Shown piece after piece: positions 45,929 through 61,166 of a DNA stretch of 64,000 bases. Source of the DNA: an uncultured bacterium (GTDB lineage: Bacteria; Bacillota_I; Bacilli_A; RFN20; CAG-826); the NCBI GenBank assembly GCA_949290395.1, contig CASERQ010000003.1, forward strand, positions 62,001-126,000, written 5' to 3'. The notes beneath the pieces are model-generated. The model was not told the origin of the DNA. It searched no databases and was given only the letters and a program-made list of their open reading frames with translations. Both the position numbers and the translations under genes were made by a program. The first letter of the stretch is position 1; each line of letters begins with the position of its first letter.

Positions 45929-48900
45929 ATGAAAAGAAATAAATTAGGTTTATCTTTATTAGCCGTTGGTGCTGCTGGATTCCTCGCTTCTTTAACAGCA
46001 GGAGAAGTAAATTACGTACCAAGCGAATTATTATCTCAAAATACTGAATTTTTAGTTTCTTTACCTGGAACTACTTTAGGCTCTTCCGTTCAAGAAATTA
46101 AGAAAATGCAAAATGATTTCTATCAAGAATTAAATCATACAATTGGTAGAGATAACTATACGGTTTTAGATACTTTTGACCACATTAACGTCGTAAAAAT
46201 CAAGGCAAATGAAGGATATCAAGATTTAATTGCTTCTATTAATGGAGTAAGAACTGTAGCTAAAAACCAAACATATCGTTTTAGTGAAGTAAGTGGTACT
46301 GCTCAAACTGAAGCTCAAAAAGAAGAAGGTTATGAAGTTTATGCTGATGTTGCTCAAGATGCAACAGAGGCTAGCTTAGAAGATCAAAACACTTCAGCTG
46401 TTTCAATGAAAGTTGATCAAATTGAGAATAATGCTGGTGGCGCTGGAAGCTTTGTTGCTATCTTAGACTCTGGTTTCTATTTAGAGCACAATTACTATGC
46501 TAACTTTGAAGCTGGCACGGCAAGAGATATGGCAAATGCTAGATTCAATTATGACAAACTTTTAGAAGTTGAACCTGAGCTTAATGCTGAAGCTACAAAA
46601 ACTTTGTCTGGCGTTACTCCTGAATATCAAAGTACAGATCGCGCAGATGGTTCTTTATATTGGAACTTAAAGATCCCATTCTATTACGATTATGGTGCAA
46701 GTAGTGAAAGTTCAACAAATGATCCTGATGTTTTATCACTTTGGTCAAACCATGGTAACCATGTTGCTTCTATCACTGGCGCAAATGGTACTTATGATGG
46801 TATCGCTCCAAACGCACAACTTGCTTTAATGAAAGTTTTCTATGAATCTATTCCTAAGGATAGAACTTCTATGGGTGGCGTTTATGCAATGGACGAAGAT
46901 ATCCTTGAAGCATTAGAAGATTGTGTTGTTTTAGGAATTGATGCGCTCAATATGTCTCTTGGTACCGACCTTGATGACTTTACAAATAAATCCGCTGGAA
47001 TGGACGTCATTGATAAGCTCGAAGCAGATGGTATTAACTGTAACATTGCTGCTGGTAACGCAGGCAAAACAATGTTCTCCTCCATGGGACTTTATAAAGA
47101 CTGGTCAACTGATATGGTTGATACAGGTATTTTAGGAAGTTACTCTAACTCCACTAGTGCAAATATTATTGCAAGTAGCACAAACCCTACTCAATATTAT
47201 GAAACTGGTCTTCAATATTCTTATAGTGATGAAACAGGTACACATAAATCCATTTTTGCTTATAGTGACCAAGTCGACTACACAAATGGTGCAGATGGTG
47301 TTACTCAAGATAAAGAAAAATTACTTTATGAAGAAGTTTATAAAGCTTTAGGTGGAGATTTCTCTAAATTGCAACTTGTTACTCCAGGAACTGGAGCCCA
47401 AACATCTGGCAATATTTATGGAACAGATGCTGATTATTCACAAGTTGAAGCTCAAAAGGGTAATGATTACTTTAGAAACAAAATTGCTGTTGTTGATAGA
47501 GGTAGTAATTCTTTCGTTGATAAAGCAAATGCCGCTCAAGATCATGGTTGCGCTGCTTTAATTGTTATTAATAATGACCCTACAGCTTATGAATTTAATT
47601 TTGGTATGAGCTGGGCAAGTGGTGACACTTCTCAATCCTATCAAATTCCAGAAATTCCTGTTGTTTTCGTTCTTTTTAGAGATAGAGAAACAATTATGGG
47701 TTCAATGAATGAAGTTAAAGGTGATAATGATCAAAATCTTTGCTATGAATCTCCTTTAGGTGCTTATTCAATCATCAAAGATGAAGAAGCTGAAAATCCA
47801 AATGCTAATGAACTTAGTGATTTCTCTAGTGAAGGCGCAACTTCTCGTCTAGATTTAACTCCAACAATTACTGCTCCAGGTACATCAATTAGAGGTGCTA
47901 CACTTGGAGAAGCAACAGCTCAAGGCAACGTTCCTGAAGAAGATCTTGATGAAGATGCAGTTGGTTATTTAAGTGGGACCTCCATGGCTACCCCTAACTA
48001 TACTGGTATTTCCGCAATTCAAGTTGGTCAAAAACAACAAGAGATTTGGGAAAAAGAACATAGATTAATGACAGAAGAAGAAAGAATTGCTTTCTTAAAA
48101 ACCTCTATCTTAAGAACTATGTCAACCGCTGATCAATATGAATATGAAAATCAAATTATTGAAGGCGTAACTCCAGAAGATGCTGTAACAGATGATGATT
48201 ACCATACTCCAGTTACTATTTATAAACCAATAAACGGCGAAGTTGATAAAGCTCCATATTCACCAAGAAAACAAGGCGCTGGTGTTGTTAACGCAAAAGA
48301 CGCTGTTGAAACTGAAGTCTATTTAGAAGGTTTAATTCCTGATGAAAAAACTGGTGATTATCCAACAGATTTAGGTTCGGCTGATGGCAATAGATTTGCT
48401 AAAGTTGAATTAAGAAATAATGCTAAAGTTGCTAGTGGCAACATTTCGCTTGGTGTAAGATTCCACAATGAAGGAACAACAACTAAAAAATATAGAGTCA
48501 AATTAAAAGTAATGGCTCCTCTCATTAACAAATATCATAACCATGATAATGAGCTTGCTAATTATGTTGCAGCTGATGCTAAATATGAGGGTGCTGATCT
48601 TCAAACTGCTTATGATACTGTTTTAGAGGAAGTTACTTTAGATGAAGATCTTACTGTTGCTCCTGGAGATTCTGAACAAGTTTTCAATCATACAATAACT
48701 GAAGAATCTAAAGCATACTTATCAAGATTCCAAAATGGTACATGGCTTGAAGGTTATATTGTTTTTGAAGATTTAAGTTCAGAAAACAAAATTGATCTTT
48801 CAATGCCTTATATGGGATTCTATGGAGATTATGCTCAAGCTGATGCAACAGAGCCATTTGAATTCGAAAAAGAAGAAAGATACAACATCGAAGAAGGCAA

Positions 48901-50290
48901 AACTGATGGTAGATTATATGGTAGCGACCTTATTAATTACCTTGGTGAACATTCTTATAGTAGAACCTTCATTAACACAAGTTCAATGATTACTGGTGAC
49001 AGTTACGATAACTATAATAGTATGAATAGAAGAGCTGGTATCCAAACTAACTCAACTAACCCATCAGACTTTGGAAACGAACTCGTTTATACAAAAGATG
49101 GCGACAATGTAACTTTATACGTTGGTAGCGATACAACCGATGTCTTATACATTCAAGAATTCGTCTATCGTTCACTTCAAAGTGAAAGAGTCGATATTGT
49201 TGATGAAGGCGGTAAAAAAGTTATCACAAGTTACGTAACAGACGTTATTACTAACACAAGAACTTTATACAAATCTCACGTTAGTAGTAGTTATATTTCT
49301 GATTACTCTTTAGCTCATAGAGGCCTTGTCGAGTTACCATTATACACAACAACAGGAGAAAAAATTCCTGATGGAGAATACACAATTAGATTTACTTACA
49401 ATCTTGTTTACGGTTCCACTCAAGTAAAGGAATTTAAACTTGTTGTTGATTCAAAAGCTCCTGCATTAACTTCTAAATCAGTTTATAAAGATGCTAATGG
49501 AAATGAATATTTGAGACTTAAATTTAATGAACTTTATATCCCTAATAACGATGATATTGTTATTAACGCTGGCGCAATTGCTAACTACAAAGTTGTTAAA
49601 ACAAGCGATGGATATTTAGTTGATATTCCTCTTGCGGGAGTTAGTGGAGATAAGATCTTTGTTAATATCTCTGATAGCACAAGTAATACTAGCTTGATTG
49701 CAATCAACATTAATGACATTAGAAGAGGATTAGTTATTGAAAGTGATTCACTTACTTTTGGTTCAACATATTCTTATACAAAAGTTGATGAAGGAACTGC
49801 AAATAATATTTCTGAACGCTATACCGTTAGTATAAAAGACTATACTGGCGCTGAAGTTAATGCCGAATATACTGCTTACTTATCATTTGATAAGAGAGTT
49901 AATTCTTCAGTTAGAGTTTATGGAATTGATAGCAAAGGAAAGAGATCACAAATCAATGTTACTTTAGTTGATAATACAACAATTAAATTCACAACTACTT
50001 ATAAAGAATTCATTGTTGAAGATAATGGAAGAACACAAAATTCAATCTCAACAAGCGATAATGCTACTGTGTCATTCGAGGGAACTGTCACTGGTGGACA
50101 AGTTTACGTGGATAAAGTAAGTGGCATTGCTGGAGAAGTTTCAACAATCTATGCTATTCCAGAAAATGGATATAGAGTAGAAAGTGTTACAGTAAATGGC
50201 AAAACCATTGCTCCTGATTTACAAGGCAACTATCAATTTGTTCTTGAAACTGGCGTGAATACTGTTGTTGTTACCTTTGCTCAAAACTAA
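45929..50290 (+). CDS. secreted S8 subtilisin-like protease
   Basis: A 1,453-residue serine protease of the lactocepin / C5a-peptidase type. A signal peptide without a lipobox Cys leads into a propeptide region (to about 155). The catalytic triad is Asp180 (A-I-L-D-S-G), His275 (H-G-N-H-V-A) and Ser685 (G-T-S-M-A-T-P); the oxyanion Asn is Asn377 (A-A-G-N-A-G). A PA domain is inserted before the Ser segment (core near 515-560, V-V-D-R-G). An Fn3_5-like beta domain follows at about 815-930, then further beta domains and one InlB-like repeat at the C-terminus (about 1365-1453). No LPXTG or clear membrane anchor is present, so it is secreted or held by its C-terminal repeat. It should cut extracellular proteins to peptides. 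AAAGGAGGAG gives a strong start. Confidence 0.95.
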   Translation: MKRNKLGLSLLAVGAAGFLASLTAGEVNYVPSELLSQNTEFLVSLPGTTLGSSVQEIKKMQNDFYQELNHTIGRDNYTVLDTFDHINVVKIKANEGYQDLIASINGVRTVAKNQTYRFSEVSGTAQTEAQKEEGYEVYADVAQDATEASLEDQNTSAVSMKVDQIENNAGGAGSFVAILDSGFYLEHNYYANFEAGTARDMANARFNYDKLLEVEPELNAEATKTLSGVTPEYQSTDRADGSLYWNLKIPFYYDYGASSESSTNDPDVLSLWSNHGNHVASITGANGTYDGIAPNAQLALMKVFYESIPKDRTSMGGVYAMDEDILEALEDCVVLGIDALNMSLGTDLDDFTNKSAGMDVIDKLEADGINCNIAAGNAGKTMFSSMGLYKDWSTDMVDTGILGSYSNSTSANIIASSTNPTQYYETGLQYSYSDETGTHKSIFAYSDQVDYTNGADGVTQDKEKLLYEEVYKALGGDFSKLQLVTPGTGAQTSGNIYGTDADYSQVEAQKGNDYFRNKIAVVDRGSNSFVDKANAAQDHGCAALIVINNDPTAYEFNFGMSWASGDTSQSYQIPEIPVVFVLFRDRETIMGSMNEVKGDNDQNLCYESPLGAYSIIKDEEAENPNANELSDFSSEGATSRLDLTPTITAPGTSIRGATLGEATAQGNVPEEDLDEDAVGYLSGTSMATPNYTGISAIQVGQKQQEIWEKEHRLMTEEERIAFLKTSILRTMSTADQYEYENQIIEGVTPEDAVTDDDYHTPVTIYKPINGEVDKAPYSPRKQGAGVVNAKDAVETEVYLEGLIPDEKTGDYPTDLGSADGNRFAKVELRNNAKVASGNISLGVRFHNEGTTTKKYRVKLKVMAPLINKYHNHDNELANYVAADAKYEGADLQTAYDTVLEEVTLDEDLTVAPGDSEQVFNHTITEESKAYLSRFQNGTWLEGYIVFEDLSSENKIDLSMPYMGFYGDYAQADATEPFEFEKEERYNIEEGKTDGRLYGSDLINYLGEHSYSRTFINTSSMITGDSYDNYNSMNRRAGIQTNSTNPSDFGNELVYTKDGDNVTLYVGSDTTDVLYIQEFVYRSLQSERVDIVDEGGKKVITSYVTDVITNTRTLYKSHVSSSYISDYSLAHRGLVELPLYTTTGEKIPDGEYTIRFTYNLVYGSTQVKEFKLVVDSKAPALTSKSVYKDANGNEYLRLKFNELYIPNNDDIVINAGAIANYKVVKTSDGYLVDIPLAGVSGDKIFVNISDSTSNTSLIAININDIRRGLVIESDSLTFGSTYSYTKVDEGTANNISERYTVSIKDYTGAEVNAEYTAYLSFDKRVNSSVRVYGIDSKGKRSQINVTLVDNTTIKFTTTYKEFIVEDNGRTQNSISTSDNATVSFEGTVTGGQVYVDKVSGIAGEVSTIYAIPENGYRVESVTVNGKTIAPDLQGNYQFVLETGVNTVVVTFAQN

Positions 50291-50339: not shown

Positions 50340-50768
50340 ATGGAAATTCAAAAGAAAAAGTTTAATTTTAAAAGGTTTTTTAACTTATATTTATCCCGTT
50401 TCTTAATTAGCGGGGTAGTTATAACTTTGATTTTTATATCAATTTATGTACCAAGAGAAATGAATTTAATTGCTGCTTTAGATGGAACATTTTATGGAAC
50501 TGTTATTGCAGGGATTTTGGTTTTTGGTTCTATTGCAACGAACATGGGATTTTTTGATATCATTGCTTATAACGCAGTTAGGATTAGTAAAAGATTCTAT
50601 GGCGGGAAAAAAGATTCTGCAAAAAGTGATTTTTATGGAACCTATGATTACACAAAAAGTAAAGAAGAGAAAAGAAAAGATATGCGTTATGTTTTTCTCT
50701 CTTACCTTGCAGTATTTGTGATTTATCTTGTTACAACCTTAATTTTATATTCGTTATATTTAAACTAA
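50340..50768 (+). CDS. DUF3899-like small membrane protein
   Basis: A 142-residue membrane protein. Hydrophobic helices lie at about 20-37, 50-72 (overlapping the conserved-looking N-M-G-F-F-D-I segment) and 119-140; a charged loop with G-G-K-K and K-S-K-E-E-K-R-K sits between the last two. The D-x-x-F-Y-G-T-x-x-A-G then N-x-G-F-F-D pattern resembles the DUF3899 family of Firmicutes, whose function is unknown. The start codon lies just after the terminator T tail, and no ribosome binding site is visible in the run of A residues. It may be translated from a leaderless or weak start. It shares no obvious operon with its neighbours. Confidence 0.7.
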   Translation: MEIQKKKFNFKRFFNLYLSRFLISGVVITLIFISIYVPREMNLIAALDGTFYGTVIAGILVFGSIATNMGFFDIIAYNAVRISKRFYGGKKDSAKSDFYGTYDYTKSKEEKRKDMRYVFLSYLAVFVIYLVTTLILYSLYLN

Positions 50769-50919: not shown

Positions 50920-53900
50920 ATGAAGAAAAGAAGAGTTATATATGGACTAAGTTCGTTATTGTTACTTGGTGGTTTAGTAGGAGTTGTCTCATGTCAACCT
51001 GAACCTACACCAGAACCAACACCTGATCCAAAACCAGATCCAGATAAGAAACCAGGTGTTGAAAGTTTTACTGTTGAACTTTCTGGAAGCAATTCGATCT
51101 CGATTGGTGAAACTGTCAATATTGTCGCAACATCAAATACAGATGGATATGAAGGTATTTTCGGTTTTACTGTTATTGAAGGCGAAAATTTTATTGACGT
51201 TAATGATAACGGAACTGTTACTGGAATTGCAGCAGGAACTGCTAAAGTTCAAGTCGAATGCTTTAATATGAGTTCAGATTTTGCTGATAGCTCAACTCAA
51301 ACTGTTGATATTACTGTTACTGGTGAAGCTACACAAGCCGTTGGTGCTGCTAACTTTGTTGGTAAAACTTACGAAGAAAAACTTGATATTTTAGGAAAAC
51401 TCGAAAAATATGCTATTGATAATCACTTAACTGGTATTACCCTTTTTGAAAATGGTGGTTATGTAATGTATAGCAGCCGTATTCAAAAACCAACTAACAA
51501 TTATATTACCGGATATGGTTTAGGTGTACTTTCTGAAGGTTCAATTACTGCACCAATGGAATCGGAATCTAATCCTAACTGGCAAATGTATTATCATACA
51601 TTTGGTGGAGCAAATAACAAGCAAAACTTTAACTATTTAGACGATACTGGTAGTGAATCCGCTTCTCTTTTTGGCTATATTTCTTCAACCTACTATGGCC
51701 AAAAAATGAACGCTTCTAAAAATGGTTATGATTGGTATCCAGTTTTAGCACTTGAAAATCCAGAAACAGGAGATTTTAAACCACAAGCCTTAAATACTAA
51801 CCCAGCTACTGGTTTAGCTACCAAATATAAAGTTTATGTTAGAAGTGGTGAAAAAGGCGGCGTTAAATATAGTACCTTATCAACAAAAGAAGGTAGAGCT
51901 GCTTATAACGATAGATATGTCGAACTTGAAGATTATCGCACACCATTTATGCTTCTTTTAAATGGCAAAATTGGACTTGCAAGAAATGCTGACTATATTT
52001 CAGATTCAAGTAACTCTACATTAAGAGGTGCTAGAGCATTCTCTGATATGACAAAGAACGCTTCAAATGGAGGAGACGTTAAAACATACATCCCTCAATT
52101 TGAAAAACTTGTTGGCATGGAATTAAACAAAGAAGAAAGTTCAATAACTTTTACATTTAATACACCTGTTAACCAATTCACTGCGATGACCAACCTTTCT
52201 TTAACTCTTAACTCACCAATTCCTTTAGATTTCATTGAGTTATTAGGAAAAGAATGTAAGGATACAAATCCAAGTACAATGTATGGAAAAGCAATGAAAG
52301 ATGCTTATGGTACAAGAAATGCTATTGATAAAAACTTTACTCCAGTAGACAATATTCTTTCAGTCGCACCTTATACATTAGAAGAAGTTAACGATACTGC
52401 AGTTGTTTATAAGAGAAATCCATCTTGGTTTGAATTTAGTAGTAGTGATCCAACAATTAAAAACAGATACAGCATCGAAGGTATTAAAATTGTATATGAT
52501 CAAGCTGCTGCAAGTGATACAACAGCTGCTTTCCAAAGTTTCTTAGATGGAACACTCGATTCCGCTTCCATTCCTAAGGAATATATGGCTGAATATGTAA
52601 ATAATCCACTTACAACAACAACACAAGGTGATGCTACATTTAAACTTAACTTAAATACGGCAACACAAAAAGAGTGGGATAAGTTATTCGAGGATACAAA
52701 AGCTCAATTTAACTGGGAATGTGAACCATTAATGAGTAATGACAACTTTGTTAATGCTTTAAGCTTTGCAATCGACAGAAAAACATACGCTCAAACAAGA
52801 GGTAGTGTTGCTTCACAAAGTTACTTTGCCCCTGCTTATCTTTGGGAACCAGAAAAAGGTTTATCATACAATGATACAGCACAACATAAAGCAGCTATTG
52901 CTGAATACTCTCCAGATACAAACGGCTATAACTTTGATTTAGCAGTCCAACTCTTTGACAGGGCAATTAGTGAAGAAATTTTCAAAGGTAGTTATTCTTC
53001 TTACAATACAACAGTTGATATTGATATTTTCTGGATGAATACTACTGATACAAAAGAGTATGGAAACGAACTTGTTTCATATTTCAATAAAGCTTTTGAA
53101 GCTACTAATGCTTATGCAAGTGGTTTTAGAATCAACTTTAATAACCACGATGGTACAACAAACTATCAAGATGTTTACGATAAGATGAAGAGAGGTCAAT
53201 TCGATATGGGTTTCGGTTCTATTAGTGGTATGCAACTTGACCCACTTGGATTTATGGAAGTCTTAAAGAGCGATAACTCTTCTGGATTTACTCTTAACTG
53301 GGGTATTGATACTTCATCTATCGTAGAAGATTCTATTTACTATGATGGAAGAGAATGGAGCTTTGATGGTTTGTGGACTGCAGCTACAAAAGGCGCAATT
53401 ATTGAAAATGACGCTGGTGTTAATAGACAACCTGTTAAACTTAATAGAAATACTACAAGTAGCAATATTATTTCTGAGAATGTTCAAGTAGGTAGTGCAC
53501 AAGTAGAAGCTTGGAGAATTGCTTACGAATTCTCGACAGAAGTCGCAACAAGTGGCGTTTCCTTCAAAGCTTTTGCTGATGCTCAAGCAAGAAATGAAGA
53601 ATATGTAACTGTTACAATTAGTTATACAATGCCAGGAAGCAGTGCAGTAACTCAATCTGTAGCGTTTAACGCAACTCTTGATGGTCTTTTCAAGATTCCA
53701 GGCAACCAAGTAACAGAAGATGGCACATTTAATGCAGGAAGTGGTGCTAATAAGAGAGCTGGCTTCTATATCTACATTCCTAAAGTATTAAATGAAACAT
53801 CTACCGACAAACAAGTTGTTACTCCAGTTGATTTAAGTCAAGCTACAACATTAACTGTTTCAATTTATGCAACTTACTATATGACAATTGAAAATATTCC

Positions 53901-53943
53901 AGTTGCAACTACACTCACAAATAGTGGTTTTGTAATTAAATAG
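50920..53943 (+). CDS. oppA: oligopeptide ABC importer, binding lipoprotein
   Basis: A 1,007-residue substrate-binding lipoprotein (Cys25, V-V-S-C) for a peptide importer. A Pro/Asp/Glu linker (P-E-P-T-P-E-P-T-P-D-P) is followed by an Ig-like BIG2 domain (about 46-135). The SBP_bac_5 fold then shows A-L-S-F-A-I-D-R-K near residue 613 and the K-R-G-Q-F-D-M-G-F segment near 756. It is far longer than usual OppA proteins (about 540-600 residues) because of the Ig-like front and extra C-terminal beta sequence. It should capture peptides and pass them to OppBC. It has its own promoter and a strong terminator before oppB, which fits higher expression of the binding protein than of the rest. Confidence 0.92.
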   Translation: MKKRRVIYGLSSLLLLGGLVGVVSCQPEPTPEPTPDPKPDPDKKPGVESFTVELSGSNSISIGETVNIVATSNTDGYEGIFGFTVIEGENFIDVNDNGTVTGIAAGTAKVQVECFNMSSDFADSSTQTVDITVTGEATQAVGAANFVGKTYEEKLDILGKLEKYAIDNHLTGITLFENGGYVMYSSRIQKPTNNYITGYGLGVLSEGSITAPMESESNPNWQMYYHTFGGANNKQNFNYLDDTGSESASLFGYISSTYYGQKMNASKNGYDWYPVLALENPETGDFKPQALNTNPATGLATKYKVYVRSGEKGGVKYSTLSTKEGRAAYNDRYVELEDYRTPFMLLLNGKIGLARNADYISDSSNSTLRGARAFSDMTKNASNGGDVKTYIPQFEKLVGMELNKEESSITFTFNTPVNQFTAMTNLSLTLNSPIPLDFIELLGKECKDTNPSTMYGKAMKDAYGTRNAIDKNFTPVDNILSVAPYTLEEVNDTAVVYKRNPSWFEFSSSDPTIKNRYSIEGIKIVYDQAAASDTTAAFQSFLDGTLDSASIPKEYMAEYVNNPLTTTTQGDATFKLNLNTATQKEWDKLFEDTKAQFNWECEPLMSNDNFVNALSFAIDRKTYAQTRGSVASQSYFAPAYLWEPEKGLSYNDTAQHKAAIAEYSPDTNGYNFDLAVQLFDRAISEEIFKGSYSSYNTTVDIDIFWMNTTDTKEYGNELVSYFNKAFEATNAYASGFRINFNNHDGTTNYQDVYDKMKRGQFDMGFGSISGMQLDPLGFMEVLKSDNSSGFTLNWGIDTSSIVEDSIYYDGREWSFDGLWTAATKGAIIENDAGVNRQPVKLNRNTTSSNIISENVQVGSAQVEAWRIAYEFSTEVATSGVSFKAFADAQARNEEYVTVTISYTMPGSSAVTQSVAFNATLDGLFKIPGNQVTEDGTFNAGSGANKRAGFYIYIPKVLNETSTDKQVVTPVDLSQATTLTVSIYATYYMTIENIPVATTLTNSGFVIK

Positions 53944-54056: not shown

Positions 54057-55115
54057 ATGGGAAAATATGTAGTTAAAAGACTAGTACTTGCGCTTATAAC
54101 CGCCTTTATTATTTTGAGTGCTACTTTCATGCTCATGAGATTACTTCCTTTCACTCCACCAGCTGGTTTTCCGGTTGATATGTATCGTTATTTTGAGGAT
54201 CAGGTGGAGCAAGGGTTTGTTATCAGATTTAACCAGCCAACTGAAGGCTATGGCGATTGCTTGTGGGACAGCACAAAAACAGATTTATTCCAAGGTGGAG
54301 CTGCTCAAGTTTACTACTATCAAAGACCAATTATTGAACAATATTTTGGTTGGTTAAGAAATATTTTTACTGAATGGAACTGGGGCACCTCTGTTCAAAT
54401 TCAAGTCAATGCTAGTGCTATCGATATTATCGGTTCAAGACTTCCAGTATCTATGGGAATTAATATCATTTCTGTAATTATTAGTGTTCCTATTGGCATT
54501 GCTTTAGGAATTTGGGCTGCTTTAAAAAAGAACAAGTTAACAGATCATATTATTTCTACACTTGTTATGATTTTTATTTCTGTTCCAAGTTTTATTATCA
54601 TCTCGCTTTTAATTAAATGGTTAGCCAGAGATTTAGGCGTTTTACCATTAAGATGGCCAGATGCAAGTTCAACTGGAGTAGATAAAGCTTTAGGTTATGT
54701 TATACCTGTAATTTCACTCTGTTTTGGATCAATTTGTGGTTATTGCAGATTTACAAGAGCAGAACTTTGTGAAGTTATGAGTAGTGATTATTTGCTTTTA
54801 GCAAGAACAAAAGGTTTAACTAAGAGTCAATGTATTACACGTCACGCTTTAAGAAACGCAATGGTTCCAATTGTTCCATCAATCTTGGCTGAATTTATTG
54901 GAATTTTAAGCGGTTCGATGATTCTAGAAAATTTATATAATATTCCTGGGATTGGTGGCTTATTCTTTAAAGCCATAAGTCAAAAGGATTACAACGTTTT
55001 AATGGTTGATATGGCTATTTTTACACTTATCAGTTTAAGTGCGAGTGTATTCTTAGACATATCATATGGTTTTATAGACCCACGTATTAGAATGGGGGCA
55101 AAGAACAATGGCTAA
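54057..55115 (+). CDS. oppB: oligopeptide importer permease
   Basis: A 352-residue inner membrane permease of the BPD_transp_1 (DppB/OppB) family. TM1 (about 9-28) is followed by an extracytoplasmic loop of about 90 residues that is longer than usual and contains a W-N-W-G-T-S segment like the G-D-x-G-T-S of family members. The other five helices follow. The cytoplasmic EAA-type loop (L-A-R-T-K-G-L, then H-A-L-R-N-A) that docks on the ATPase lies near residues 255-275. With OppC it forms the peptide channel. Its stop overlaps the oppC start by 8 nt, so they are translationally coupled. Confidence 0.95.
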   Translation: MGKYVVKRLVLALITAFIILSATFMLMRLLPFTPPAGFPVDMYRYFEDQVEQGFVIRFNQPTEGYGDCLWDSTKTDLFQGGAAQVYYYQRPIIEQYFGWLRNIFTEWNWGTSVQIQVNASAIDIIGSRLPVSMGINIISVIISVPIGIALGIWAALKKNKLTDHIISTLVMIFISVPSFIIISLLIKWLARDLGVLPLRWPDASSTGVDKALGYVIPVISLCFGSICGYCRFTRAELCEVMSSDYLLLARTKGLTKSQCITRHALRNAMVPIVPSILAEFIGILSGSMILENLYNIPGIGGLFFKAISQKDYNVLMVDMAIFTLISLSASVFLDISYGFIDPRIRMGAKNNG

Positions 55116-57312
55116 CGAAATCAAAGAATATGTTTATACTGATAGTAGTGAAGTAGAACACAAAATTCATATCTATGATAATTCTTTTGATTTTGCTCAG
55201 AAGGATAAAGCCATTCATGATACGAAATTTTTAACAAAACCTACTACATTCTTAAAAGATGCTTTTAGAAGATTTTGTAAGAATAAATCTTCTGTTGCAG
55301 GCGCTATCATTTTAGGAATTTTACTTTTGGGAAGTTTAATCATACCTCTTGCTGTTCCATATGACATTAATGTTAACCACCCAACAGAAACATTCTTGGA
55401 ACCAAAACTATTCCCAGCCGGAACTGGTTTCTGGGATGGAACAAAGAGAATGGAAAACATTCCAGTTGACCCTGCAACAATCGAAATAGATGAAGCAACC
55501 GGAGTAATGACAGGAACTCCATATGCTTCACAATATCCAGCACGAGCTATATCGAATGTTTCAGAAGTTCGTTATGGTTATGTTACAAGCGCATCAAACG
55601 CAACTAGTGGCGGTTTTGTAAATATTACTAATGGTAATTCAATATTAACAGCTGATGAAGAAAGTTATGAATTAAACAAAGTAACATTTAAAAGTGCTAA
55701 TTATAACTTTGATTTAACAAGTGAAGATTATTCATTAGATATTGTCTTACTTAATGAAGAAGTTGAAGACTATCCAATTGGTGATTATCGTGTTTACTTA
55801 AGTTATGATTACACTGAAGTAGTCGATAATGAAGAAAATGCAGACGAAGAAACTTCGACAACTGAAACAGTCACTTCAAAGCGTGAGATTGTTTTATTAG
55901 ATTATGACGAAACACCTCAATATATTGCTAGTGAAGAAGAAGATGCCGCTGGTAATGTAAATCGTTTAAATACTTTACATTTTGATGATATTACAGCAGG
56001 CTTCAGAGATGAAAGTATTGTTCAAGAAAATGTTTCAAATATTGCTTTGGCAATAGACTTAAGACCTAACATTGACTCAAGTAGTTCTTTGTTTATTGAA
56101 AATATATCTGTTAAAAATGTGGAAAAAGAAGTCGGTGAATTATCTTGGAAAAGTGCTAACGATTTCATTTTAGGACCTACATGGACTACAACTCATACAA
56201 ATGGTGATCCTAAAAAAGTTTCAACTTCTCTATATAACGGCGTAACTTATGTTTGTGATTTTACCTTAGACACATACGCTATTCCTTATGGCGTTCAAAC
56301 TAAAACTTTGAGTAAAACAGAGTTAAGTCAATATGCAAAAAATGGTTGGATTGCTGGTGAATTAGCTGATGATGTACAAAGTAAAGAAATTTTGGATCGT
56401 TGGTTTAACTACACAAGAGCAGGAGGTGGAACTCCTAGCAGTGCAATTGCAGAAAGAATTCAACCTGAACTTGATGAACTTAAAACACCATTAAGTGAAA
56501 CTAAGCTTCCTATTATTTCTATTCAAGGTGTTATAAGAACCAGTTTTACAGATCCATCAACAAATGATGTATTGTATTCCTATACAATTACAGCAACTGT
56601 TTATGGTTATAAATATTTAGGTTATGATTCGATGCCAATTTATCTTATGGGAACTGATAATTTTGGATACGACATGCTTAAGAGAACTTTTGCTGGACTT
56701 GCAACATCTCTTGGATTAGGCATTCTCATCTTCTTAATCTGTTTCTCATTTGGTTTAATTTATGGTGCTATCTGTGGATACTTTGGTGGAGCAATTGATA
56801 TTATTCTCCAAAGATTCTGTGATCTTTTAAGTGGCGTCCCTTGGATTGTTATCATGACTTTATGTATCTTAAATCTTGGTAGTAACTTTGGTACCTTTAT
56901 TCTTGCTATGTGTTTAACTGGTTGGATTGGTACAGCTAGCTTAACTAGAACCCAATTCTATAGATTTAGAGATAGAGAATATACTCTTGCAAGTAGAACA
57001 CTTGGTGCTTCAAACTTTAGACTTATCTTTAAACATATTTTACCTAATGCAATGGGTACAATTATTACAAGTGCGGTCTTAATGATTCCTAGTGTTATCT
57101 TCTCTGAAGCAAGTATCTCTTATTTAGGTCTTGGATTCCAAGATATGCAATCACTTGGTGTTGTTTTAAGTGATAATCAAGCTTATTTACAAACTTATCC
57201 TTACTTAATTTTCTTCCCAAGTGTCATCATGGCTTTAATCATGATTAGTTTCAACTTATTTGGTAATGGCTTAAGAGATGCCTTTAACCCATCATTGAAA
57301 GGGAGTGATTAA
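55108..57312 (+). CDS. oppC: oligopeptide importer permease with giant insert
   Basis: A 734-residue OppC-type permease, about twice the usual length. The N-terminal cytoplasmic tail and TM1 (about 62-85) are normal. About 410 residues of acidic, Thr/Ser/Asn-rich, beta-like sequence (about 95-505) then stand where OppC proteins have a short loop before the G-T-D-N-x-G-x-D motif, here at 515-522. The remaining five helices follow, with the EAA loop (L-A-S-R-T-L-G-A-S). By topology the insert should lie outside the cell, next to the binding protein. The frame is open throughout, so this is one polypeptide. I do not recognise the insert; it may help dock OppA or bind substrate. Confidence 0.92.
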   Translation: MANEIKEYVYTDSSEVEHKIHIYDNSFDFAQKDKAIHDTKFLTKPTTFLKDAFRRFCKNKSSVAGAIILGILLLGSLIIPLAVPYDINVNHPTETFLEPKLFPAGTGFWDGTKRMENIPVDPATIEIDEATGVMTGTPYASQYPARAISNVSEVRYGYVTSASNATSGGFVNITNGNSILTADEESYELNKVTFKSANYNFDLTSEDYSLDIVLLNEEVEDYPIGDYRVYLSYDYTEVVDNEENADEETSTTETVTSKREIVLLDYDETPQYIASEEEDAAGNVNRLNTLHFDDITAGFRDESIVQENVSNIALAIDLRPNIDSSSSLFIENISVKNVEKEVGELSWKSANDFILGPTWTTTHTNGDPKKVSTSLYNGVTYVCDFTLDTYAIPYGVQTKTLSKTELSQYAKNGWIAGELADDVQSKEILDRWFNYTRAGGGTPSSAIAERIQPELDELKTPLSETKLPIISIQGVIRTSFTDPSTNDVLYSYTITATVYGYKYLGYDSMPIYLMGTDNFGYDMLKRTFAGLATSLGLGILIFLICFSFGLIYGAICGYFGGAIDIILQRFCDLLSGVPWIVIMTLCILNLGSNFGTFILAMCLTGWIGTASLTRTQFYRFRDREYTLASRTLGASNFRLIFKHILPNAMGTIITSAVLMIPSVIFSEASISYLGLGFQDMQSLGVVLSDNQAYLQTYPYLIFFPSVIMALIMISFNLFGNGLRDAFNPSLKGSD

Positions 57313-57314
57313 TA

Positions 57315-60300
57315 ATGGAAAACAAAGTAAACAAAATCGATTATTCAAGCGCTCCTAAAGTTCTTGAAGTTAAAAATTTAAGAATTAATTTCTCTAGTGA
57401 TTCTGGAACAGTTTATGCTGTTCGTGGTGTCTCTTTCGACCTTTATAAAGGCGAAACTTTATGTATCGTTGGTGAATCAGGTAGTGGTAAATCTGTTACC
57501 TCCAAAACGATCATGGGTATTTTAGCAAATAACGCTATTATCGAAAGTGGTCAAATTTTATATGAAGGTGAAGATTTAGTTAGAATTTCTGAAGAAGAAT
57601 TTCATCGTATTAGAGGACATAAAATTGGAATGATCTTCCAAGATCCTCTTTCATCTTTAAACCCTATCTGTAGAGTTGGTAAACAAATCACTGAAGCAAC
57701 TCTTATTAACAAAAACATTTTAAAAAGACATTATAACGATTTAATTTCTCGTGAACTTGTTGCTTATCGTAACGCTGAAGCAAACAAAGAATTTGAATTA
57801 AATAGAATTAAAAATGAAATCTCTAAAGTTGAAGAATTCATCAAGTTTATTACTGGAAAAGATATTAAAGAAACTGATGAAAAATCAATTGAAGAGAAAA
57901 ACGAAAAAATTCTTGAACAATCTTATTTATTCAAGAAAGATTTAGAAAGAGTAATTGAAGAATTAAATAACGAAATTGACTCTTTAAAAAGAAAAGAAGA
58001 TTTCAATGAAAAATATTTTGAAAAAGAAATAAACGAAGCAAAACTCAACTATTCTTCTAAAAAAATCGATTTATTTAAGAACTCATTAGCATCAATTAAA
58101 GAAGATGATTTGCAAGCTATTTTAAACTGCATGTCAGAGTTCTATGATAACTATAAAAAATTCATTAAAGACGAATTTAAAACCATTAGACCTCTTCTTA
58201 AAAAAGCACTTAATGCTCGTAAAAAAGATGCTAAAAAAGAAAATGCTGATTATGCTTTATCTTTAAAAACTAAGAGAGACGAAAGTGTTGCTAAACTTGA
58301 AGTAGAACTTGAAGAAGCAAATAATTCATTAAATGCTTTACTTGCTAATGCTAGTGAAGAAGTTATTAAAAACGTTGAAGAATTAAAAGCTCAAAGAAAA
58401 CCAAAGAAAAAGAGTTTATTAGATTTCTTCAAAAAACAAAAACAAGAAGAAATCAATATTTCAAAGCTTGGTAAACAAGATGAAAAACTTTCTTCAAGTG
58501 GTGATGAAGATATCGATAACGCTTTATTTAAGGTTTTTGAAATTGAAGATGAAATCTTTAAAGTAAAAGAAGAATACATTAACTCAACTAAAGTAACTAA
58601 AAAAGAAGCTAAGAGAATGGCACTTGAGGTTATGAGAGAAGTTGGTATTCCTCTTCCTGAAAAACGTTTCAGACAATATCCATTTGAATTCTCAGGTGGT
58701 ATGAGACAAAGAATTGTTATCGCAATTGCTTTAACTGCAAATCCAGATATCTTAATTTGTGATGAGCCAACAACAGCACTTGATGTTACAATTCAAGCTC
58801 AAATCTTAGAATTAATTAATAAACTTAAACGTGAAAGACATCTTAGCTGTATTTTCATTACGCACGACTTAGGTGTTGTTGCAAATATGGCTGATAGAGT
58901 TGCTGTTATGTATGCTGGTAAGATTGTTGAATTTGGTACAGCTTATGAAATCTTCTATAATCCAAAGCATCCATATACATGGGCACTTTTATCTTCAATT
59001 CCAGATATTGATTCAAAAGAAAAACTTGATGCAATCCCTGGAACTCCTCCAGATATGAGATTCCCTCCTAAGGGAGATGCATTTGCATTAAGGAGTAAGT
59101 ATGCTTTAGAAATTGATTTTAAACATGAACCTCCTTTCTTTAAAGTAAGTGATACACACTATGCAGCAACTTGGTTACTCCATCCAGATGCACCAAAAGT
59201 TGAAATGCCTAGAATTGTTGAAACTCGTATTGCTAACTCTATTAAACAATATGAAGAAAGCTCTAAAGAAAATAAGGAAGAAATCCTAAAAGAAGTTCCT
59301 CAAGAAAGCTTTGAAATCGCTAATAACTATAAAGATGATGATTATAGTTTAAGAGGTGCAAAACAAGCTTTAATTTCAAAAAATATTGAAGCTTATAGAA
59401 GTGTTGAAGAAGGAAAAGCTTCTTTCTCAAAAGAAGACAATTCTATCTTAGTTAGCGAAACAACAGTATCAAGTGATGAACTTGCTGGCGTTAAAGAAGA
59501 AAATGTCGAAGATAAATTAGAAGAAATTAGACAAAAATGTAAATTTAAGGAAGAATACGTTAAAGACAACATTATTCTTAGCGTTAATCATTTAAAACAA
59601 TATTTCTTCTTTGGATCAGGACCAAATAGATACAAATTAAAAGCTGTTCACGATGTATCTTTCCAAGTTAAAGAAGGTGAATGCTTTGGTATCGTTGGTG
59701 AATCAGGTTGTGGTAAAACAACAACTGGGAGATCAATTATTAGACTTTATCATATTACTTCTGGATCTATCTATTATAAGGGCGTAAGAATTGGCGCTGG
59801 AAGTAGATGGAACGAAAAAGAAATTAAATATACTAAGATTAGATATAACGCTAAAGTTAAAGAACTTAAGGCTAAACTTAAAAATGGTGAAATTACAAAA
59901 GATAGTTTTGATCAATCTGTTGAAGCACTTAAGAACTTTAAAAACAATGTCGTTCGTGTCCAAACTGAAAAGATTAGACAAATTAAACACGATGATAAAC
60001 ATGCTCCACGTGAACTCTTAAATGAGATTCAAATGATCTTCCAAGACCCTATTGATTCTCTTGACCCAAGAATGACGGTTGAAGATATCATTCAAGAAGG
60101 TCTTAGAATTCAAGGATTTACAAATAAAGCTGAAAATCACGAAAAAGTTGTTAACGTTTTAGAAAAAGTTGGTTTAATTGCTGATTATTGTAACCGTTAT
60201 CCTCATGAATTCTCTGGTGGACAAAGACAAAGAATTGGTATTGCTCGTGCCCTCATCATGAATCCTAAATTACTTATTTGTGATGAACCTATCTCTGCAC

Positions 60301-61166
60301 TTGACGTTTCAATTCGTGCTCAAATCATCAACTTATTAAATCAACTTAAAGAAGAAATGGGCTTAACAATTATGTTTATTGCTCATGACTTATCAGTTGT
60401 TAAATATTTCTGTGATAGAATTGCTGTTATGTATTTTGGTGAAATTGTTGAACTTGCAAGTAGTGATGAGCTCTTCAAACATCCTCTTCACCCATATACA
60501 AGATCACTTTTAAGTGCAATTCCTAAACCAAATCCATTAACAGAAAAAGAAAGAGTAAGAATTGTCTATAACCCACGTGAAGTTCACGATTATAGTGTCG
60601 ATAAACCAGAATTTGTTGAAATTAGACCAGGCCACTTTGTTTTAGCAAATAAAGTTGAAGTTGAAAAATACAATAAAGAAATGGAAGAAATCGATGCTAA
60701 ATTAGCTGAAGAAGAAAAGGTTATAAATGAAGAGTTAGTTAAAGAAGAAGAAACTCAAAATCATGAAGATACTCAAAATAACGAAGTAAATCATGATGAA
60801 ACTAATTCTTCAAATAACGAAACCTCTTTAGAAAAACCTGAAGAAAAAGTTGAAGAAGCTAAAGAAGAAACAACTGAAAAAGAAATTTCAGAAACAAAAG
60901 TTGAAGAAGAAGAAAAGGCATCTAAAAGAGAAGAACCATCCGAAACTTTACTTAAACAACGTTCGGGTGAATTTAAAAAAGTTTACCACGTTAAAAAAGT
61001 TGGCGATAAATGGGAAATCCGTCTTAAAGATGGCTTAAAGGCAATTAAAACTTTTGATACAAAAGTTGAAGCTATGAATTACGCTAATTCCTTAGCTAAA
61101 TCACAAAACGGAACAATCTTAGTTCATGCTTCAAAAGGCAAAAATAAAGGTAAATTTATAAAATAA
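57315..61166 (+). CDS. oppD-oppF: fused OppD-OppF ATPase with coiled insert
   Basis: A 1,283-residue protein with two complete ABC ATPase domains. NBD1 (OppD-like): Walker A G-E-S-G-S-G-K-S 53-60, Q-loop Gln109, signature S-G-G-M-R-Q 460-465, Walker B Asp483/Glu484, H-loop His517. NBD2 (OppF-like): Walker A 795-802, Gln910, signature S-G-G-Q-R-Q 967-972, Walker B Asp990/Glu991. About 290 Lys/Glu-rich, probably coiled-coil residues (about 135-425) interrupt the helical part of NBD1 between Q-loop and signature. NBD2 has a smaller charged insert (about 825-905) before its Q-loop. An acidic tail and a DUF2188-like domain (about 1221-1283, Y-H-V-K-K to L-V-H-A-S) close it. It should power OppBC. 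GGGAGTGA precedes the start, 2 nt after oppC. Confidence 0.93.
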   Translation: MENKVNKIDYSSAPKVLEVKNLRINFSSDSGTVYAVRGVSFDLYKGETLCIVGESGSGKSVTSKTIMGILANNAIIESGQILYEGEDLVRISEEEFHRIRGHKIGMIFQDPLSSLNPICRVGKQITEATLINKNILKRHYNDLISRELVAYRNAEANKEFELNRIKNEISKVEEFIKFITGKDIKETDEKSIEEKNEKILEQSYLFKKDLERVIEELNNEIDSLKRKEDFNEKYFEKEINEAKLNYSSKKIDLFKNSLASIKEDDLQAILNCMSEFYDNYKKFIKDEFKTIRPLLKKALNARKKDAKKENADYALSLKTKRDESVAKLEVELEEANNSLNALLANASEEVIKNVEELKAQRKPKKKSLLDFFKKQKQEEINISKLGKQDEKLSSSGDEDIDNALFKVFEIEDEIFKVKEEYINSTKVTKKEAKRMALEVMREVGIPLPEKRFRQYPFEFSGGMRQRIVIAIALTANPDILICDEPTTALDVTIQAQILELINKLKRERHLSCIFITHDLGVVANMADRVAVMYAGKIVEFGTAYEIFYNPKHPYTWALLSSIPDIDSKEKLDAIPGTPPDMRFPPKGDAFALRSKYALEIDFKHEPPFFKVSDTHYAATWLLHPDAPKVEMPRIVETRIANSIKQYEESSKENKEEILKEVPQESFEIANNYKDDDYSLRGAKQALISKNIEAYRSVEEGKASFSKEDNSILVSETTVSSDELAGVKEENVEDKLEEIRQKCKFKEEYVKDNIILSVNHLKQYFFFGSGPNRYKLKAVHDVSFQVKEGECFGIVGESGCGKTTTGRSIIRLYHITSGSIYYKGVRIGAGSRWNEKEIKYTKIRYNAKVKELKAKLKNGEITKDSFDQSVEALKNFKNNVVRVQTEKIRQIKHDDKHAPRELLNEIQMIFQDPIDSLDPRMTVEDIIQEGLRIQGFTNKAENHEKVVNVLEKVGLIADYCNRYPHEFSGGQRQRIGIARALIMNPKLLICDEPISALDVSIRAQIINLLNQLKEEMGLTIMFIAHDLSVVKYFCDRIAVMYFGEIVELASSDELFKHPLHPYTRSLLSAIPKPNPLTEKERVRIVYNPREVHDYSVDKPEFVEIRPGHFVLANKVEVEKYNKEMEEIDAKLAEEEKVINEELVKEEETQNHEDTQNNEVNHDETNSSNNETSLEKPEEKVEEAKEETTEKEISETKVEEEEKASKREEPSETLLKQRSGEFKKVYHVKKVGDKWEIRLKDGLKAIKTFDTKVEAMNYANSLAKSQNGTILVHASKGKNKGKFIK

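Follow-up and report, generated by a model that had tools for sequence, protein, structure and literature searches.

The OppC permease subunit of a peptide ABC importer from an uncultured member of the Bacilli_A carries a large insert between its first transmembrane segment (TM1) and the GTDN motif. The insert is placed outside the cell by topology, is modular, and is shared by a clade of OppCs that spans many families. On balance, we favor the interpretation that it acts as an outward platform of the importer that would aid the docking of the binding protein OppA. The window, that is, the whole stretch of 64,000 nucleotides that was analyzed, contains the importer operon, and the coordinates of its relevant features are given in Table 1.

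The product of oppC is an OppC-type permease. Both expected Pfam domains score above their curated cut-offs (OppC_N at residues 47-95, 44.5 bits vs. 23.9; BPD_transp_1 at 549-731, 101 bits vs. 26.4), the gene sits in an operon with those for OppA, OppB and OppD/OppF, and residues 512-729 match the OppC chain 8z21_B in the PDB (1.6e-39). It is also the sole OppC_N-bearing permease found in the window's genome. The loop from the end of TM1 to the GTDNFGYD motif measures 428 residues. Ten OppC-type permeases of the short kind have 18-64 residues there, and the other sampled OppCs have 143-837. The original prediction of an insert of about 410 residues at 55390-56625 has the coordinates right: they correspond to OppC residues 95-506, and the insert is one open frame. 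Its composition is rich in Thr, Asp, Glu and Ser, as had largely been anticipated (T 10.3, S 8.9, E 8.6, D 7.4, N 6.2%), and it is acidic, with a net charge of -38 (the whole TM1-TM2 loop has 31 K/R vs. 71 D/E).

Table 1. Coordinates of the importer genes, of the protein segments within oppC, and of the adjoining protease gene in the window.
Feature	Position	Strand	Description
subtilase	45929..50290	+	Large, secreted; S8, PA and fn3_5 domains; 5′ of oppA; conserved neighbor in the genus
oppA	50920..53943	+	1007 aa lipoprotein; divergent family-5 solute-binding protein; C-terminal extension of ~180 aa
oppB	54057..55115	+	352 aa; BPD_transp_1 2.4e-38; TM1-TM2 loop ~109 residues
oppC	55108..57312	+	734 aa; permease subunit with large insert; OppC_N 1.4e-11, BPD_transp_1 8.5e-29
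TM1 of OppC	55294..55350	+	Residues 63-81; from hydropathy and charge count; K/R-bearing N-terminus ahead taken as cytoplasmic
N-arm of insert	55360..55557	+	Residues 85-150; near-invariant LxPKLFxxGTGFWDGT at 97-112; from conservation over 49 inserts
D1 module	55558..56217	+	Residues 151-370; predicted jelly-roll fold at 171-338; AlphaFold2 pLDDT mostly 65-90 over 171-338
D2 module	56218..56637	+	Residues 371-510; predicted alpha/beta, adjoins membrane part; AlphaFold2 pLDDT 75-89 over 391-501
GTDNFGYD motif	56650..56673	+	Start of conserved permease core; residue 515
oppDF	57315..61166	+	Fused OppD and OppF ATPases, 1283 aa; ABC_tran, oligo_HPY and DUF2188

The claim that the insert belongs to no recognised family stands. 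Searches with the insert alone found no match in NCBIfam and none past the cut-off among PDB sequences, and the residues between OppC_N and BPD_transp_1 have no Pfam match above cut-off. A weak Pfam match to BT_3044-like_C (E 0.036 to 0.089, below cut-off) appears in one member only and was discarded.

Hydropathy reports no hydrophobic helix or transmembrane segment within the insert. Five transmembrane segments of OppC pass the threshold, and a sixth is probably contained in residues 589-647, before the cytoplasmic coupling loop, which is rich in K/R. Given an N-terminus that lies inside, the order of the segments places the insert outside, so that by topology it would be extracytoplasmic, in agreement with the original prediction.

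Structure prediction was informative for parts of the insert. AlphaFold2 on the full-length OppC is poor (pLDDT 45, four usable sequences), while the insert alone gives a usable model (pLDDT 60.7) from few sequences; viral contigs searched for additional sequences provided none. In that model, residues ~171-338 fold as a jelly-roll-like beta-sandwich and residues 391-501 as an alpha/beta domain, but the N-arm and residues ~339-394 have no confident model. The beta-like character ascribed to the whole segment is right for the former region, the latter being modeled as alpha/beta. In VIA structure comparisons, where Z < 8 may reflect merely a common arrangement, the D1 sandwich matches InhA2 (Z 8.6, rmsd 3.4, 141 aligned residues), the ligand-binding domain of EphA4 (7.6) and CBM4 (6.2), and Foldseek with the insert reports no match at E 0.001 or better. 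For these two reasons we assign the predicted D1 to the jelly-rolls at the level of fold class only.

Conservation is distributed very unevenly along the insert. Among 49 inserts, positions conserved at 80% or more number 11 in the N-arm, 11 in D2, and three in D1, the longest part (G169, Y208 and W364). The conserved positions of D2 are F385..D388.Y390....G395, G413 and Y501..LGY..MP510. A candidate conserved disulfide in D2, C383-C467, was rejected: both cysteines are present in just 20 of the 49 inserts.

These results bear on a first alternative, that the jelly-roll is no dock for OppA but a module that binds glycan or peptide ligands, by which substrate is concentrated or the importer tethered to a surface. 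The structural matches to carbohydrate-binding modules and to InhA2 (Z 5-8.6) point that way. But the fold is very common, the Z values are at a level that unrelated models also reach, and with so few conserved positions D1 has no obvious conserved binding site. Neither a carbohydrate-binding-module family nor an InhA2 MAM-like family was found in the 49 inserts, either with Pfam (isolated weak matches elsewhere) or in a search of PDB sequences. We regard this alternative as unlikely.

The insert is not a peculiarity of one genome. Homologous inserts are present in dozens of genomes, and a profile built from the 49 inserts finds them in several other families of the class. All matches of the profile sit in OppC-sized frames, and no free-standing protein form was seen. 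The OppC frames of the family and order are of two classes, one short (~320-390 aa) and one long (~440-870 aa), and some genomes have both; across a phylum sample, in which the search yielded members of the same class only, frame lengths go from about 290 to 1149 aa. In a tree of 91 permease cores constructed with the insert excluded, 79 insert-bearing OppCs form one strongly supported group (100/98), with loops of 143-616 residues, and the next to join it are short-loop OppCs (45-46 residues). A single origin of the insert-bearing OppCs is supported rather than proven by this tree, which is midpoint-rooted and has several long branches.

The inserts were compared with one another by hhalign. 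Homology between the long inserts extends from one end to the other, in near as well as distant families (E 1e-28), and medium inserts share with the long ones the N-arm alone (E 6e-11) plus, weakly, the last 21 columns. The OppC of L081 (6898-8226) keeps the N-arm and D2 while D1 is absent as an exact unit. Because L081 sits among jelly-roll bearers in the tree, the absence is a loss. Taken together, the homology pattern and this loss identify D1 as a removable, faster-evolving module on a conserved base, close to the membrane, made of the N-arm and D2. What had been described as one domain in one genome is indeed domain-sized, but it is modular and clade-wide. Size changes of other kinds are also seen. 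Three very long OppCs (L064:1637-4246:-, L066:2757-5360 and L067:5000-7519) have a medium insert inside which ~350 more residues are nested, and for these scans of L064 and L067 report no Pfam match. The OppC of L079 (2046-4796, minus strand; 917 aa) has a loop of 616 residues, and is nested among relatives with loops of ~340.

The same loop has been filled in another way in OppCs that fall outside the main clade. Those of L095 (5558-7408) and L080 (5857-9288) carry RCC1-like beta-propeller repeats between TM1 and TM2 (RCC1_2 E-values of 2e-34 and 2.7e-22, respectively). When the L095 insert is used as the query, nearly its whole length is matched in frames of 597-627 aa from five further genomes in three families, and three of those five frames are also among the OppC matches of the phylum search. 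These propellers belong to a separate OppC lineage, and unrelated beta-rich domains have thus entered the OppC TM1-TM2 loop at least twice.

Evolutionary rates provide a further view of the insert. In closely related pairs, dN/dS is 0.07-0.42 for the insert vs. at most 0.16 for the core; comparing the window with the relatives nearest to it gives insert values of 0.45-0.56, with synonymous change near saturation. By these estimates the insert is under purifying selection, yet it changes at several times the rate of the permease core. Values well below 1, together with homologs in dozens of genomes, confirm that the insert is not a chance open frame. A second alternative is that the distal part is mainly surface decoration (a shield, an adhesin, or a domain made variable by phage or host) and takes no part in transport. 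The rapid evolution, the repeated changes in size and the fact that the part can be lost are what one would expect of it; the purifying selection on pairs of inserts, the close to invariant motifs of the base, and the occurrence of the long-type insert in OppC-sized frames only are not. We find this alternative unlikely too.

The neighborhood of oppC is that of a peptide importer. An oversized OppA does stand beside the insert, as the original prediction had noticed (Table 1). Profile comparison relates it to AliD of the pneumococcal Ami system (1.1e-10), and SBP_bac_5 is found in 10 of 23 relatives. In the insert-bearing clade, a gene for an OppA-like lipoprotein lies 5′ of oppB wherever the upstream sequence is long enough, with the caveat that in the medium-insert group OppA is called from position and a lipoprotein start only. 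The C-terminal extension of OppA mostly accompanies the long insert type, and several OppAs are without it. A strict coupling of D1 to the extension does not hold: the OppAs of L057, L059, L061 and L075 have no extension while their OppCs have the long insert, and L081 seems to be the converse. D1 and the extension look alike by eye, but profile comparison detects no homology between them. In distance matrices the insert covaries with the OppA core, but by partial correlation it follows OppA no more than it follows a cytosolic ATPase control, and this comparison therefore does not single out OppA. Downstream, the OppD part of the fused ATPase includes a long extra stretch, coiled-coil in appearance (about residues 140-420), and its DUF2188 is C-terminal.

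One can also ask whether the insert is itself a solute-binding protein that has become part of the permease, a fusion that some other importers have. It is extracytoplasmic and near a binding protein in size, but hhalign gives D1, D2 and the N-arm a probability of 0.1% or less against the OppA core, the insert has no solute-binding-protein match in Pfam or the PDB, the model is a jelly-roll plus a small alpha/beta domain, and a separate OppA exists; we consider such a fusion very improbable. A misassembly or gene-fusion artifact, in favor of which nothing was found, can be practically discounted, because dozens of genomes, each assembled separately, show this arrangement without interruption.

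The cargo can be approached from the gene upstream of oppA. Related subtilases lie 5′ of OppA in nine other loci (L004, L005, L056, L058, L060, L061, L063, L074 and L075), and a small DUF3899 protein is encoded at 50340-50768, between the subtilase and oppA. Lactic acid bacteria pair a proteinase with Opp, and the locus resembles that pairing, with a lactocepin-like protease. Because such a protease adjoins the importer, the cargo probably consists of peptides released from extracellular protein.

How does the insert compare with outer elements of other importers? The window OppC agrees with the Opp3C/Opp4C-type permeases (NF045475, NF045476) in core domain, OppC_N, GTD motif and operon setting, and scores 262.6 bits against the Opp3C equivalog NF045475, below the curated cut-off of 450; the loops of those permeases are tens of residues long, as opposed to 428 here. 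MalF belongs to a different permease family, with its P2 loop at a different position of the permease, and both that loop and the OppC insert are outer-loop domains of importer permeases. P2 of E. coli MalF is a periplasmic domain that engages the binding protein at all stages of the catalytic cycle (work cited in PMC3328499). The scoop motif of E. coli DppB lies in the periplasm between TM1 and TM2, where it touches the binding protein and closes off the substrate cavity (PMC12136057). It is made up of a loop and two short helices and belongs to the B subunit, whereas the window insert is multi-domain and in the C subunit. AmiC of Streptococcus pneumoniae has two extracellular domains (31-278), proposed from published AlphaFold-Multimer models to hold the binding protein like a clamp, in the roles of wedge and platform (PMC11192437). 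AmiC and the window OppC are alike in being permease subunits of peptide importers that have grown by domains on the outer face; the difference is that AmiC is an OppB-type subunit, and the window insert belongs to the OppC-type subunit and is the longer of the two (the OppB loop has ~109 residues). In searches of open-access literature, we found no description of large OppC inserts.

In AlphaFold-Multimer models of the Ami system, the homologous loop of the OppC-type subunit AmiD (residues 64-99) is placed against lobe 2 of the binding protein (PMC11192437). This placement makes docking the natural guess for the OppC insert; no result pointed to the capture of larger substrates, the other role that the original prediction had suggested. 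By analogy with these models we judge a contact of the conserved base with OppA to be moderately probable. The base (N-arm and D2) would lie against lobe 2 of OppA and the mouth of the translocation path. Through this contact OppA could be docked, held or released more effectively, or sealing could be assisted. D1, further out, might make lineage-specific contacts with OppA, with neighboring surface proteins or with substrate. A more general proposal is that the OppC TM1-TM2 loop is a docking port into which the phylum has time and again placed large domains of unrelated kinds (arm with jelly-roll and alpha/beta, nested extra domains, RCC1-like beta-propellers), the outcome being a family of peptide importers whose permease would itself help to capture or select cargo or binding proteins; we offer this tentatively, as a rather doubtful extension.

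Peptide uptake is probably central to these small-genome gut bacteria. If the annex docks OppA, then a whole phylum would have remodeled the side of the importer contributed by the permease, which is usually seen as a plain pore. And the variants that nature provides (a short loop, arm plus D2, the jelly-roll, the nested insertion and the beta-propeller) form a series with which the role of the outer loop may be tested by removing or exchanging modules.
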